This document shows positions 6,111 to 64,000 of a stretch of DNA of 64,000 nt, piece by piece; position 1 is the first letter of the stretch, and each line of letters opens with the position of its first letter. This stretch comes from Urbifossiella limnaea (GTDB lineage: Bacteria > Planctomycetota > Planctomycetia > Gemmatales > Gemmataceae), in assembly GCF_007747215.1 (NCBI RefSeq), contig NZ_CP036273.1, positions 124,001-188,000 on the forward strand, read 5' to 3'. The notes beneath the pieces were generated by a model. It searched no databases, was not told the origin of the DNA, and saw nothing but the letters and a program-made list of their open reading frames with translations. Position numbers and translations under genes: made by a program.

Positions 6111-6158
6111 CGCCGCTCGCGGCGTAGCGGGGCTTGCACCGCTACGCCGCAAGCGGCG
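6111..6158. terminator. palindrome after the CotH gene (family B)
   Basis: 20-nt arms at 6111-6130 and 6139-6158 with one mismatch and an 8-nt loop, just past the CotH stop codon at 6165. A factor-independent terminator or REP-like element is likely. It shares arm sequence with the elements at 3462, 52020 and 56616. Confidence 0.6.
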
Positions 6159-15334: not shown

Positions 15335-15399
15335 GTTAGGCCGGGGCGCAAGCCCCGTCAGGGTTGGGATGCCCGACGGGGCTTGCGCCCCGGCCTAAC
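15335..15399. terminator. perfect 25-bp palindrome (family A)
   Basis: Arms 15335-15359 and 15375-15399 are exact reverse complements with a 15-nt loop. It lies 26 nt after the WD40 gene. The same arm, GTTAGGCCGGGGCGCAAGCC, occurs at 26472 and (one base changed to give CGCGAGCC) at 33807. Confidence 0.75.
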
Positions 15400-20758: not shown

Positions 20759-21664
20759 TTAACGGTGGGTCTGGTGGTACGTCCGCTCGAACTCCTCGGG
20801 GGACACGGACCCCAGGGAGGAGTGGCGGCGGACGCGGTTGTAGAACACTTCCAGGTACTCGAGGATCACGGCCTGGGCGTCCTCCCGGGTGGCGAACATC
20901 GTGCCCGGCGCGATCCCGACCTCGCACTTCAGCCGGCCGAAGAAGCTCTCGACCGGGGCGTTATCCCAACACTGCCCCACCCCGCTCATGCTGCACACGA
21001 TCCCGGCCCCGGTGAGGACGCGTTGGTAGTGCTCGCTCGCGTACTGGCTCCCGCGGTCCGAGTGCGCGAGCAGCCCGACCCCGGGACGGCGGCGGGCCAA
21101 CGCCAACTCCAGGGCGTCCACGACCAGCCGGCTCTCCATCGTCGCCGCCATGCTCCACCCCACGATCATCCGGCTGAACAGGTCCTCGACGACGGCCAGG
21201 TACACCCACCCCTCGCGGGTCGGGACGTAGGTGATGTCGGCCGACCAGGCGGCGTTCGGGCGGGCCGGCGTGAAGTCCCGGTCGAGTCGGTTGTCGGCGA
21301 CCGGGTGGGCGTGCCCCGAGTCCGTCGTCCGCACGAACCGACGCGGCGTTCTCGCCCGGATTTCGTGGGCCGTCATGAGCTTGGCCACGGCGTTCTCCGA
21401 GCACGCCTGACCCCGGGCGTTCAACTCGGCGGTCATGCGCGGGCTGCCGTACCGCTCCCTCACCTCGGCGTGGACCTCCCGGATCGCCGCGACCAGCTCC
21501 CGCCGCCGCTGCTCGGCCGCGCTGTCGGCCCGTGACGCCCAGGCGTAGTACCCGCTGGCCGACACCTCCAGGGCGTCGCACATCCACCCGACCGGCCACT
21601 CGGCGGCGTGGTCGGCGACGAACCGGAACGTCAGGTCGGCGGGTTGGCGAAGTACGCGGCGGCT
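20759..21664 (-). CDS. IS3 transposase OrfB region (DDE catalytic domain)
   Basis: Read as the second part of an OrfAB fusion after a -1 slip at the A7 run; 301 residues follow the slip and the fusion would be about 389 residues, typical for IS3. The first 100 residues contain the HTH_21-like 'VSASGYYAW' region. The rve-type catalytic core then shows WSADITYV (first Asp), LAHSDRGSQYAS (second Asp) and CWDNAPVESFFGRLK (Glu), with D to E spacing near 35. It catalyses cut-and-copy transposition of the element. OrfB could also be made alone from an internal start, but none is compelling. Confidence 0.92.
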   Translation of the reverse strand, partial: SRRVLRQPADLTFRFVADHAAEWPVGWMCDALEVSASGYYAWASRADSAAEQRRRELVAAIREVHAEVRERYGSPRMTAELNARGQACSENAVAKLMTAHEIRARTPRRFVRTTDSGHAHPVADNRLDRDFTPARPNAAWSADITYVPTREGWVYLAVVEDLFSRMIVGWSMAATMESRLVVDALELALARRRPGVGLLAHSDRGSQYASEHYQRVLTGAGIVCSMSGVGQCWDNAPVESFFGRLKCEVGIAPGTMFATREDAQAVILEYLEVFYNRVRRHSSLGSVSPEEFERTYHQTHR

Positions 21665-21927
21665 TTTTTTAACAAGTCCCGCTCGGCACGAAGTCGTGCG
21701 TTCTCGGCGCGGAGTTGGCGGAGCTCCTCGTCGGCCGGGGACGGGTTGCCGTGCCCCGGGAAGGCGGCGTCGCCGCGACCCCGGTGGGCCTTCCGCCACT
21801 CGTGGAGGACGTTCTCGTTGACCCCGAGGCGGCGTGCGGCCTCGGCGACGGAGAGCTTCTGGTCGGTGATCATCTTTACCGCGCGGAGCTTGAACTCGGC
21901 GGTGTACGTCGCACGCAGTCGGGCCAT
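21631..21927 (-). CDS. IS3 transposase OrfA (HTH_Tnp_1)
   Basis: 98 residues from the ATG at 21927. The N-terminal half is a helix-turn-helix (YTAEFKLRAVKM...SVAEAARRLGVNENVLHEW), and the C-terminal half is a leucine-zipper-like coiled coil (LRQLRAENARLRAERDLLKKAAAYF). It binds the terminal repeats and dimerises; alone it often acts as a repressor of transposition. The end of the gene overlaps the OrfB frame, with the slippery run inside its LLKKAA codons. Confidence 0.93.
   Translation of the reverse strand: MARLRATYTAEFKLRAVKMITDQKLSVAEAARRLGVNENVLHEWRKAHRGRGDAAFPGHGNPSPADEELRQLRAENARLRAERDLLKKAAAYFANPPT
21662..21672 (-). promoter_or_regulatory. programmed -1 frameshift site in the IS3 element
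   Basis: On the minus strand the codons TTA AAA AAA GCC of orfA contain seven consecutive A (21664-21670). Slipping back one base continues as AGC CGC CGC in the orfB frame. This is the standard way IS3 elements make the OrfAB transposase. Confidence 0.8.
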
Positions 21928-21971
21928 CGGTGTACTCCTCCTCGGAGCATACACCGTTAACTTCGACTCCA

Positions 21972-22636
21972 CGAAACTTGGGGAGGGTCAGGTGAAGGTG
22001 GGTGACTTCTCCCGCGGTGGTGAGGGCCGGGCGGCGGAGGGGGTGAGGGCGCTCAATCACGACATGTCCCCCGAGGCGGTGCTGGTGCCGTTCGGGGTGC
22101 TGGAGTTGAACCGCGGGGCGGTGCCGATCCACCAGCCGTGGTTCCTGTTCGGCCGCTCGCGAGAGACGAGCGACTTCCTGGCCGACGGCCTCGACCTCTG
22201 GTGGCAGGAGCGGAAGGCGGTCCACCCCGGCGTCACACGCCTGCACGTGGAGTTGGACAACGGCCCCGAGATCGGCAGTTCGCGGACCCAGTTCCTGAAC
22301 CGGATGGTGGGGTTCGTGGACCGGCACCGGGTGGCGGTGGAGTTGGTGTACCTGCCGCCGTGTCACAGCAAGTACAACCCGATCGAGCGGTGCTGGGGGA
22401 TCCTGGAGCGGCACTGGAATGGGGCGTTGCTGTCGTCGGTGGCCGACGTGCTGCGGTGGGCGGGGACGATGACGTGGCGGGGGCTCCGGCCGATCATCCG
22501 GGAGACGACGGCCGTGTACGAGCGGGGCGTGCGGCTGACCAAGGCGGCCTTTCGTCCCATCGCCGCACGACTGACCCGCTCACGCACACTACCCAAGTGG
22601 AGCCTCACCATCCAACCCAAAGGACTGGGAAGGTAA
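21972..22636 (+). pseudogene. 3' part of an ISAzo13-type DDE transposase
   Basis: About 220 residues match the C-terminal half of ISAzo13 ('Rhodopirellula transposase') proteins: 'VKVGDFSRGG', 'LDNGPEIGSSRTQFLNRM', 'PPCHSKYNPIERCWGILE' and 'HWNGALLSS..DVL.WA.TMTWRG'. The second Asp (LDNGP) and the Glu (NPIERCWG) of the DDE triad are present. The N-terminal half with the DNA-binding region and first Asp is missing; the frame begins exactly at the right end of the IS3 element. The missing half is not found on the left side of IS3, so this is a broken gene rather than a simple insertion. It is not expected to be active. Confidence 0.85.
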
Positions 22637-22651
22637 GATCCCGCTCATGCC

Positions 22652-24307
22652 TTACTCGTCCGCGGTGCGGAGGAACACGAGCGGCCGCGGCGGCTTCGCC
22701 CCGGTGAACTGCTCCAGCCGGCCGACCTCCACCAGCCGCCGCACCTTCACGATCTCGCCGGCGGGGTAGACGTACTCCGGCGGCATCACCACGAACCGCG
22801 GCCCCGGCTCGCGCAGCCACGCCGCCAGGTCGTGCCACTCCACCTTCGTGTCGATCGGCCGGCGGAGGTGGAACGCCAGCAGGTGCGACTCGGCGCGGAA
22901 CATCAGTACCGGTTCCGGCTCCGGCGCCTGCGAGCGGATGAACGCGGCGAACGCCCGCTTCCCCTCGCGTGCCTCCTCCGCCGGTTCCACCACCTGCGTC
23001 ATCACGCCCCAGCCGACCGCGACGCCGGCCAGCACCAGCGCGAACGCCCACGTCGCGCGGCGGACGGTGCGCGTGTTCGACCGCGTGGCGAGCCAGCGCT
23101 CGGCGGCGCAGCCGAGCACGACGGCGGCGCCGGGGTACAGCGGCAGGAGGTAGTCGGCGCGCTTGAACTTCGCCGCTGACAGGACCGCGAACATCGTCAC
23201 GACCCACACCACGCCGAAGCGGAACAGCGGGTCGGCCCGCCAGCCGCCGGTGCGCACGGCCCACGCGGTCAGCAGCGCCAGCGCGGGCGTCCACGGGAGG
23301 AAGTCCGCGGCGAGGCGCGGCAGGTAGTACCACACCGGGTGCGACGCCAGCGTCGGCGACGTGCCTGCGAACCGCTCGACGTTGTGGTGCCAGAAGAAGA
23401 CGCGGACGAACTCACCGTCGGTGGCGGCGTTCGCCCACAGGAACCACGGCGCGGCGAGGCCCAGCACGACGGTGACGCCAAGGAGCGCGGCGGGGACGGG
23501 GAGGCCGCCGCCGCCGCGCGGTTTCACCACGAGCCACGCGACCGCGGCGGGGCCGACCAGCGCGAGCGCGACCGGGCCTTTGAGCAGCACGCCGGCGGCG
23601 GCGGCGACGGCGGCGAGGAGGAAGTACGGGTGGCGGAACGGCGAGCGGCCCGCGTCAGCGGGCTGTTCCTCAGCGCAACTGTGGCGCTGAGGAACAGCCC
23701 GCTGACGCGGGCCGCTCGCCGGGGCGTTCGTTCCACGATAAAAGGCCACCAGCGCCACCGCCACCGCGCACGTCAGCGGCACGTCGATGCGTGCGGTGCG
23801 CGAGATCGCGGTGAAGTGCCCGGCCGTCGCCAGCGTCAGCGCCGCGACAACCGCCGCGACCGGCCGGCCTTCGCGGCGCAGCCAGCCGTACACGAGCGCG
23901 ACAGTGAGCAGCCCCGCTAGCGCCGCCGGCAGCCGGGCGCAGGCCTCGGTCACGGTGCCGCCGTTGAGCCACCCCGCGGCGGCGACGAGCCAGTAGTAGC
24001 CCGGCGGCTTCTGCAGATCGACCTGCCCGTCGAACAGGACCGGCAGCCCCCATTCACCGGTGTCGAGCATCCGCTGCGCGTTCTGGGCGGCGCGCGCCTC
24101 GTGACTGCTGACCAGCTCGCGGCTGCCGAGCCCGGCGGTGAACAGCGCGGCGACACCCACGACGGCCGTGACGTGAAACCACACGCTTCGACGAGCCGCG
24201 ACCGAAAGGGAGCGGCTGCTGTGATCGACGATCTGCGTACGGAGGATGGGCGCAGACGCGGCCGCTCCCGGGCGGTCGCGGCTCGTTGAGGTGTCCGCGG
24301 CGCTCAC
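22652..24307 (-). CDS. ArnT-like family 39 glycosyltransferase with palindrome-encoded inserts
   Basis: 551 residues from a GTG at 24307 that overlaps the stop of the ABC exporter gene by 4 nt (GTGA). The core is a GT39/GT83-type membrane transferase: 'LGSRELVSSHEARAAQN' with the acidic pair in the first periplasmic loop, 'DGQVDLQKPPGYYWL', about ten to twelve transmembrane helices and 'KFKRADYLLPLYPG'. Such enzymes move a sugar from a polyprenyl-phosphate donor to a lipid such as lipid A or to a protein. Residues about 7-39 and 196-223 are encoded by two palindromes (24191-24286 and 23639-23721) and are hydrophilic and unlike the rest. The second falls in a loop between helices. The C-terminal 130 residues are soluble. 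Confidence 0.88.
   Translation of the reverse strand: MSAADTSTSRDRPGAAASAPILRTQIVDHSSRSLSVAARRSVWFHVTAVVGVAALFTAGLGSRELVSSHEARAAQNAQRMLDTGEWGLPVLFDGQVDLQKPPGYYWLVAAAGWLNGGTVTEACARLPAALAGLLTVALVYGWLRREGRPVAAVVAALTLATAGHFTAISRTARIDVPLTCAVAVALVAFYRGTNAPASGPRQRAVPQRHSCAEEQPADAGRSPFRHPYFLLAAVAAAAGVLLKGPVALALVGPAAVAWLVVKPRGGGGLPVPAALLGVTVVLGLAAPWFLWANAATDGEFVRVFFWHHNVERFAGTSPTLASHPVWYYLPRLAADFLPWTPALALLTAWAVRTGGWRADPLFRFGVVWVVTMFAVLSAAKFKRADYLLPLYPGAAVVLGCAAERWLATRSNTRTVRRATWAFALVLAGVAVGWGVMTQVVEPAEEAREGKRAFAAFIRSQAPEPEPVLMFRAESHLLAFHLRRPIDTKVEWHDLAAWLREPGPRFVVMPPEYVYPAGEIVKVRRLVEVGRLEQFTGAKPPRPLVFLRTADE
23639..23721. repeat. perfect 38-bp palindrome inside a coding region
   Basis: Arms 23639-23676 and 23684-23721 are exact reverse complements with a 7-nt loop (AACTGTG). 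The whole element is in frame within the glycosyltransferase gene and encodes a Pro/Arg/Gln-rich loop of about 27 residues. A transcript would fold into a very stable hairpin in mid-message. Confidence 0.9.
24191..24286. repeat. palindrome at the 5' end of the glycosyltransferase gene
   Basis: Arms 24191-24216 and 24261-24286 (ACGAGCCGCGACCG...AGCGGC) pair at 23 of 26 positions; the three mismatches are adjacent (AAA against CCC). A smaller hairpin lies in the 44-nt loop. It begins about 20 nt after the GTG start and encodes residues about 7-39. Confidence 0.75.
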
Positions 24308-26391: not shown

Positions 26392-26471
26392 AGCCGCGGG
26401 TTATACCCGCGCGGCGGGAACGGGGGCAAGAGGGGAAAACACGCGGGCGCGCCCGGGGATTTCGGGCTGCC

Positions 26472-26536
26472 GTTAGGCCGGGGCGCAAGCCCCGTCGGGA
26501 TTCTGACGCCCGCCGGGGCTTGCGCCCCGGCCTAAC
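26472..26536. terminator. perfect 23-bp palindrome (family A)
   Basis: Arms 26472-26494 and 26514-26536 are exact reverse complements. It lies 10 nt past the stop of the methyltransferase gene (26546) and 80 nt before the ABC exporter start, so it may partly separate the two halves of the lipid gene block. Same family as 15335 and 33807. Confidence 0.75.
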
Positions 26537-26545
26537 GTAAAGCGG

Positions 26546-33683: not shown

Positions 33684-33806
33684 GGGAGCCTCGGCGCGGT
33701 GGGGGTCGGCCCAACGACCGGAGCCGCCCCGTCGTCTCACCCAGGTTAGAGACGCCGGGAGTCGGCGTCAGGGGCGCGTGTGCCTGCCGGATTCGGCGGC
33801 GCCGTC

Positions 33807-33865
33807 AGGCCGGGGCGCGAGCCCCGTCGGGATTCCGAGCCCCGACGGGGCTCGCGCCCCGGCCT
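33807..33865. repeat. perfect 25-bp palindrome (family A variant)
   Basis: Arms 33807-33831 and 33841-33865 are exact reverse complements with a 9-nt loop. Both arms carry the same compensating change (CGCGAGCC instead of CGCAAGCC) compared with the copies at 15335 and 26472, which keeps the stem intact. Confidence 0.75.
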
Positions 33866-33899
33866 AACGGGCTTCTGGCCCCGACCCGCGGGCACGGCG

Positions 33900-56615: not shown

Positions 56616-56662
56616 CCGCGACGCCGCAAGCGGCGAACCCTCCGCCGCTTGCGGCGTCGCGG
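56616..56662. repeat. perfect 20-bp palindrome (family B)
   Basis: Arms 56616-56635 and 56643-56662 (CCGCGACGCCGCAAGCGGCG) are exact reverse complements with a 7-nt loop. A smaller hairpin, ATGATCGCG/CGCGATCAT, lies just before it at 56580-56603. Both sit in the 5' region of the dihaem cytochrome gene. Confidence 0.7.
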
Positions 56663-60277: not shown

Positions 60278-60284
60278 CGTGGGT

Positions 60285-60479
60285 TTTCAGGCCGAAGGCC
60301 TGACAGCCCTCAGCCCAGGGCAACGCCCTGGGTACGGGGTGAGAAAGGCCGTGCAGGCTGAAGGCCTGCGAGCCGGCTGGCAGGCCTTCAGCCTGCGGGG
60401 TGATTCGTGCCGCCGACCCAGGGCGGCGCCGCTCTGCGGCTTGCCCTGGGCTGAGGGCTGTCAGGCCTTCGGCCTGAAA
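60285..60479. repeat. compound palindrome with perfect 39-bp outer arms (family E)
   Basis: Outer arms 60285-60323 and 60441-60479 are exact reverse complements over 39 bp. Inside, 60353-60369 and 60380-60396 form a further perfect 17-bp hairpin, and smaller CGCCCTGGG/CCCAGGGCG pairs occur between. A DNA or RNA copy would fold as a multi-arm cruciform. A second member lies at the right edge of the window. Confidence 0.85.
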
Positions 60480-60491
60480 GCCTCGTCCGCG

Positions 60492-63849: not shown

Positions 63850-64000
63850 GCCTGACAGCCCTCAGCCCAGGGCAAGCGACGAAGTCGCGCCGCCCTGGGT
63901 AGGGGTGCGAAGGCCGTGCAGGCTGAAGGCCTGCGAGTTTGCGCCGCGAACCCAGGGCGGCGGTGCTACGCACCTTGCCCTGGGCTGAGGGCTGTCAGGC
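63850..64000. repeat. compound palindrome at right edge (family E, cut by window)
   Basis: Arms 63850-63876 and 63974-64000 match over 27 bp and continue past the window on the right; the inner GCAGGCTGAAGGCCTGC and CCCAGGGCGGC words repeat those of the element at 60285. The two copies flank the segment from the DUF1349-like gene to the terminase genes. Confidence 0.8.

Follow-up and report, generated by a model that had tools for sequence, protein, structure and literature searches.

The palindrome within the GT39 gene

Why does the gene for a membrane glycosyltransferase contain a perfect palindrome in mid-gene, and where did this palindrome come from? The gene was encountered in the window, which is the whole 64,000-nt stretch of DNA that was analysed, and the following features were annotated there.

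22652-24184 (open frame to 24307), minus strand: GT39/PMT-like membrane glycosyltransferase CDS that carries the insert (Pfam, orthologues, AlphaFold, ArnT fold)
23640-23720, no strand: 81-bp REPIN-like palindromic element (family A), GGC...GCC; limits from 44 aligned genomic copies
23639-23676, plus strand: left 38-nt arm, exact reverse complement of 23684-23721
23684-23721, minus strand: right 38-nt arm, exact reverse complement of 23639-23676
23643-23668, plus strand: left REP-like unit GAGCGGCCCGC-GTCA-GCGGGCTGTTC, 11-bp hairpin with tetraloop; fold -22.6 kcal/mol
23692-23717, minus strand: right REP-like unit, inverted twin of the left unit by element symmetry
23639-23719, minus strand (read 23719-23639): 27 codons read from the element, ASGPRQRAVPQRHSCAEEQPADAGRSP; GT39 frame open throughout
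24183-24294, no strand: a second, different imperfect inverted repeat (I8, 81% complementary), between the ABC-transporter stop and the probable GT39 start

The arms were originally predicted to be exact reverse complements around a 7-nt loop, and they pair at 38 of 38 positions around the loop AACTGTG. The outermost of these base pairs is flanking DNA that pairs by chance and lies outside the 81-bp element. The next-longest perfect arms in the window have 25 nt, and the longest in random Markov windows have 11-13 nt. As RNA, the complete hairpin folds with -99.6 kcal/mol (z = -15), and no Rfam family matched the palindromic element. It had also been claimed that the palindrome keeps the frame open and adds a loop of about 27 residues, and the minus-strand GT39 frame indeed reads through it with 27 codons.

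The assignment of the host protein as a GT39 membrane enzyme was borne out by Pfam matches (PF02366 and PF13231, PMT/GT39-like) and by an ArnT-like fold (structure 5F15, E 4e-18); a PDB sequence search with the protein gave no match. An AlphaFold2 model (32 sequences, 511 residues) has a mean pLDDT of 91, and values below 50 occur solely at residues 168-180, inside the insert (157-183 of the model), which sits between predicted helices 135-154 and 186-203. As modelled, the insert is a disordered 27-residue loop between two membrane helices and the one disordered stretch of the enzyme. A DDE-type transposase remnant (21608-22636, IS630-like by eye) ends close to the stop codon of the GT39 gene, at a distance of about 15 bp.

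Family A, a genome-wide set of palindromic elements

A search of the 7.8-Mb genome with the arm sequence returned 47 forward and 47 reverse matches (at most 2 mismatches), while the reversed-pattern control returned none; the arm thus recurs about 50 times. With a covariance model, about 68 places are recovered (137 matches over both strands), some of which belong to family B, an 82-bp sibling of family A. The limits common to the aligned copies (n=44) define an element of 81 bp, GGC...GCC, which consists of GGC and an 11-bp hairpin with a GTCA or GTGA loop, followed by an inverted copy of that unit. Each half folds alone into such a hairpin, and the element therefore represents two REP-like units in inverted order. 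As in REPINs, the two hairpins are about 70-80 bp apart, and the copies are scattered and overrepresented within one genome.

The outer 28 nt are conserved while the inner arms are variable yet covary. Changes on both sides were seen at 16 pairs and account for 61 cells, whereas shuffles give 20.5 and slid controls no more than 25. The conserved end is GGCGA; an unpaired GTAG/CGTC tag at one end of the stem was not found in family A. No target-site duplication is visible around 48 family-A copies. The arm is species-biased, with 51 arms per strand in this genome and only 0-4 matches to the arm among five congeners. In congener G001, by contrast, family B is abundant (123 matches, both strands).

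Two copies occur in conglomerates with other repeats. One (G000:C1:2968705; L073 2490-2600) lies at the midpoint of a second inverted repeat (GAGAATCGGTACAGGC / GCCTGTACCGATTCTC) and looks like an insertion into the loop of a hairpin. The other (G000:C1:894739; L061 2440-2610) has a different palindrome (AGGATGAACAGGAT...) in its spacer, which is a nested insertion.

Copies behind genes and copies within genes

Gene context was assigned by a simple home-made gene caller based on codon usage. Most copies are intergenic and closely follow a stop codon, with about 0-25 bp between copy and gene 3' end. Nine or more family-A copies reach 18 nt into the gene end and provide its TGA stop (GERPA*), which comes from the GTGA loop; some sibling copies give TAG at the rim. 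According to the original prediction, such elements are intergenic elsewhere in the window. This is correct for most, though not all, family-A copies outside the window, but the window's other palindromes belong to unrelated families and so are not the same element as the GT39 palindrome.

Six full family-A copies are intragenic and in frame: in the GT39 gene of the window, a second GT39 gene and the genes for RNase R (where the copy lies inside the region that matches the RNB domain), a DcuC-type carrier, a PSCyt2/PSD1 (DUF1553) protein and a histidine kinase. Half copies are in frame in three further cases (the linker of PDH-E2, a SQHop-cyclase-like protein and a type III PKS), and sibling-family copies in two (UvrA and an FAD-oxidase). 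All six full copies have exactly 81 bp, while the length of other copies is 77-83 bp. Frame 1 is used by 11 of 11 intragenic copies, with the family-A reading ASGxRxxAV...QPAxAGRSP, even though frame 2 is open in 90 of 96 copies and frame 1 in only 71 of 96 (P about 1e-4). Judged from the gene sequences, the GT39 gene of the window appears to carry one of about ten palindrome-derived protein insertions in this Gemmataceae-type planctomycete genome.

The original prediction had likened the GT39 palindrome to Rickettsia palindromic elements (RPEs), which are about 150 bp long and AT-rich. The analogy holds for the behaviour, as family A is inserted in frame in unrelated genes just as RPEs are; its architecture is nearer to that of REPINs.

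Orthologues and sister species

When the GT39 protein was aligned with its orthologues, the expected gap was found, at residues about 197-223. In 49 sequences, the segment bounded by two conserved motifs has a median length of 38 residues; it exceeds 54 residues in only 7 of the 49, the window protein included. Five of these seven long segments have a palindromic DNA score of 14 or more, while no other sequence scores above 11. No insert is present in the loop of congeners G001, G002 and G003; that of G004 contains a family-C palindrome. With orthologues that are devoid of the insert and an arm that recurs throughout the genome, the proposal of a mobile palindrome that invaded a coding region and was kept as a loop is well supported. 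The same loop peptide without palindromic DNA would have spoken against it, but the extra residues of sister species are encoded by other repeat sequences. The sign of movement is this comparative absence from orthologues; copies caught excised or newly inserted were not seen.

Equivalent observations were made for other genes. In the RNase R loop, family A is present in this genome, a GGGGGGC-type palindrome in G002 and G004 and other repeats in G001 and G005, while nothing palindromic is found in G003 and G009. The DUF1553 protein of G005 has a perfect 28-bp GGGGGGC-type palindrome at its insertion site, and in UvrA similar residues are present in G002 and G005. These loops are therefore refilled by different families. 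Either new elements entered them repeatedly or an older insert gave way to another one.

Candidate mobilizers and other palindrome families

Four Y1/RAYT-like genes were found in the genome. The one at G000:C1:6914152 has family C (about 12 copies in the genome) on both flanks, which is the arrangement of REPINs around RAYT genes. Family E is found on both flanks of the RAYT-like gene at G000:C1:986429, and family F adjoins that at G000:C1:388571. Family A itself flanks none of the four (0/4) and does not share this arrangement. Against the TnpA-REP/RAYT model NF047646, the RAYT-like proteins reach at best 46 bits, below the curated NCBIfam cut-off of 80. Because no RAYT gene flanked by family A was found, its mobilizer can only be inferred. 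Family-C elements share the GGCGA end and the GTGA loop with family A, and our best guess is that family A is moved in trans by the family-C RAYT.

The Y1 gene at G000:C1:118501 (118.5 kb) was considered as family-A mobilizer and rejected; it is IS200-like and lies beside another repeat family (G). Eight family-A copies occur within about 110 kb of this gene (G000:C1:8500-228500), where about 1.5 are expected, a weak signal (scan-corrected p = 0.026).

Some of these other families also occur in the window: family E palindromes (GGCCGGGGCGCAAGCCCCG) at 15335-15399, 26471-26537 and 33802-33870, family F palindromes at 6111-6158 and 56616-56662, and the composite repeat of family G (CAGGCCGAAGGCCTG ... 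CCCAGGGC), which is the one beside the IS200-like gene, at 60282-60482 and 63850-64000.

Origin of the GT39 insert

We consider it very probable that a REPIN-like non-autonomous mobile element was inserted in frame into the loop between two transmembrane helices of the GT39 enzyme and is tolerated there as a disordered loop. The 81-bp element with its two inverted REP-like hairpins would have entered the loop without target-site duplication in the lineage of this species. Since 81 bp correspond to 27 codons and the element has one open frame with a hydrophilic reading, the GT39 protein would stay in frame and gain a disordered loop that is translated and tolerated in vivo. Gene-breaking insertions would be purged by selection, so that copies survive where they follow a stop codon or fall into a permissive loop of a protein. 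Mobilization would be provided by a RAYT/TnpA-REP-like Y1 transposase acting in trans. In related species, insertions of different palindrome families would recur in the same permissive loops.

Four other explanations were weighed. The element could be a selected structural RNA, such as a terminator or an mRNA-stability hairpin, that lies in the GT39 gene by chance. The position of most copies close to gene 3' ends and the covariation of the hairpin agree with this, but a strong terminator in mid-gene would cut the enzyme short, and the approximately 11 in-frame intragenic copies, the species bias of the family and the lack of an Rfam match leave this explanation unlikely. A 3'-end role may exist alongside mobility. 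Even less probable is that ribosomes bypass the hairpin, which is very stable and in mid-gene, or that it is excised like an intron, resulting in a protein that has no extra loop and in which the peptide ASGPRQRAVPQR... is absent: every intragenic copy preserves the frame, one open frame is used, and the full family-A copies have exactly 81 bp.

That the loop is ancestral and its palindromic DNA incidental might be suggested by several other species with long loops at the GT39 site. Given the short median segment, the unrelated repeats in the few segments of at least 55 residues and the three congeners that have no insert at all, we regard this as very improbable. Chimeric reads can yield perfect 38-nt palindromes, but a fold-back artefact of assembly or amplification is hardly conceivable for dozens of independent copies with common limits and sequence, and for sibling elements at equivalent sites in unrelated assemblies.

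Returning to the insertion of a REPIN-like element, a wider proposal can be made only tentatively and we consider it rather doubtful: Gemmataceae REPIN-like elements might be a standing source of protein segments, with fixed permissive loops (GT39, RNase R, UvrA, DUF1553) being refilled by the active family of each species, and with a frame kept hydrophilic and stop-free through frequent translation. The several in-frame insertions, empty sites and reused loops provide a natural comparison set for disordered protein loops that originate from selfish DNA, which also bears on whether being read as protein constrains the REPIN sequence.

Comparison with known systems

The closest architecture is that of the REPIN/RAYT system (Bertels and Rainey 2011, PMC3116915). 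Common traits are two inverted REP-like hairpins, a length of about 80 bp, conserved ends with a variable spacer, folding into hairpin or clover structures, tens of species-biased copies and the lack of target-site duplications; sibling palindromes flank RAYT-like genes also in this genome. Unlike for REPINs, no RAYT flanked by family A itself was found, the RAYTs are divergent, and many copies are intragenic and predicted to be translated.

Dimers of GTAG/CGTC REPs encode 20-30 residues within genes, uvrA included, their termini provide stop codons, and copies occur near gene 3' ends (Di Nocera et al. 2013, PMC3733652; Gemmata is absent from that study). Likewise, copies of family A and its siblings code for residues within genes, reach uvrA, supply stops and sit near 3' ends. 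In contrast, the tag is GGCGA, the stop is a TGA from the GTGA loop, and different families occupy the same loops in sister species. For such reuse, the only description that we found is a short comment on recB of Xanthomonas in the same study.

The classical coding palindromes are RPEs (Ogata et al. 2000, 2002, as summarised in PMC10969869). As described in that summary, they too are mobile palindromes that occur in frame in unrelated genes and are tolerated as extra loops; they are described from Rickettsia, and the likeness to family A is one of behaviour. REPIN architecture, intragenic coding REPs and coding RPEs have thus all been described before, and the GT39 case is a variant of these. 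Family A is the variant of a planctomycete and lacks the GTAG/CGTC tag; with it, translated mobile palindromes, hitherto reported chiefly for Rickettsia and bacterial REP repeats, are extended to a planctomycete family.
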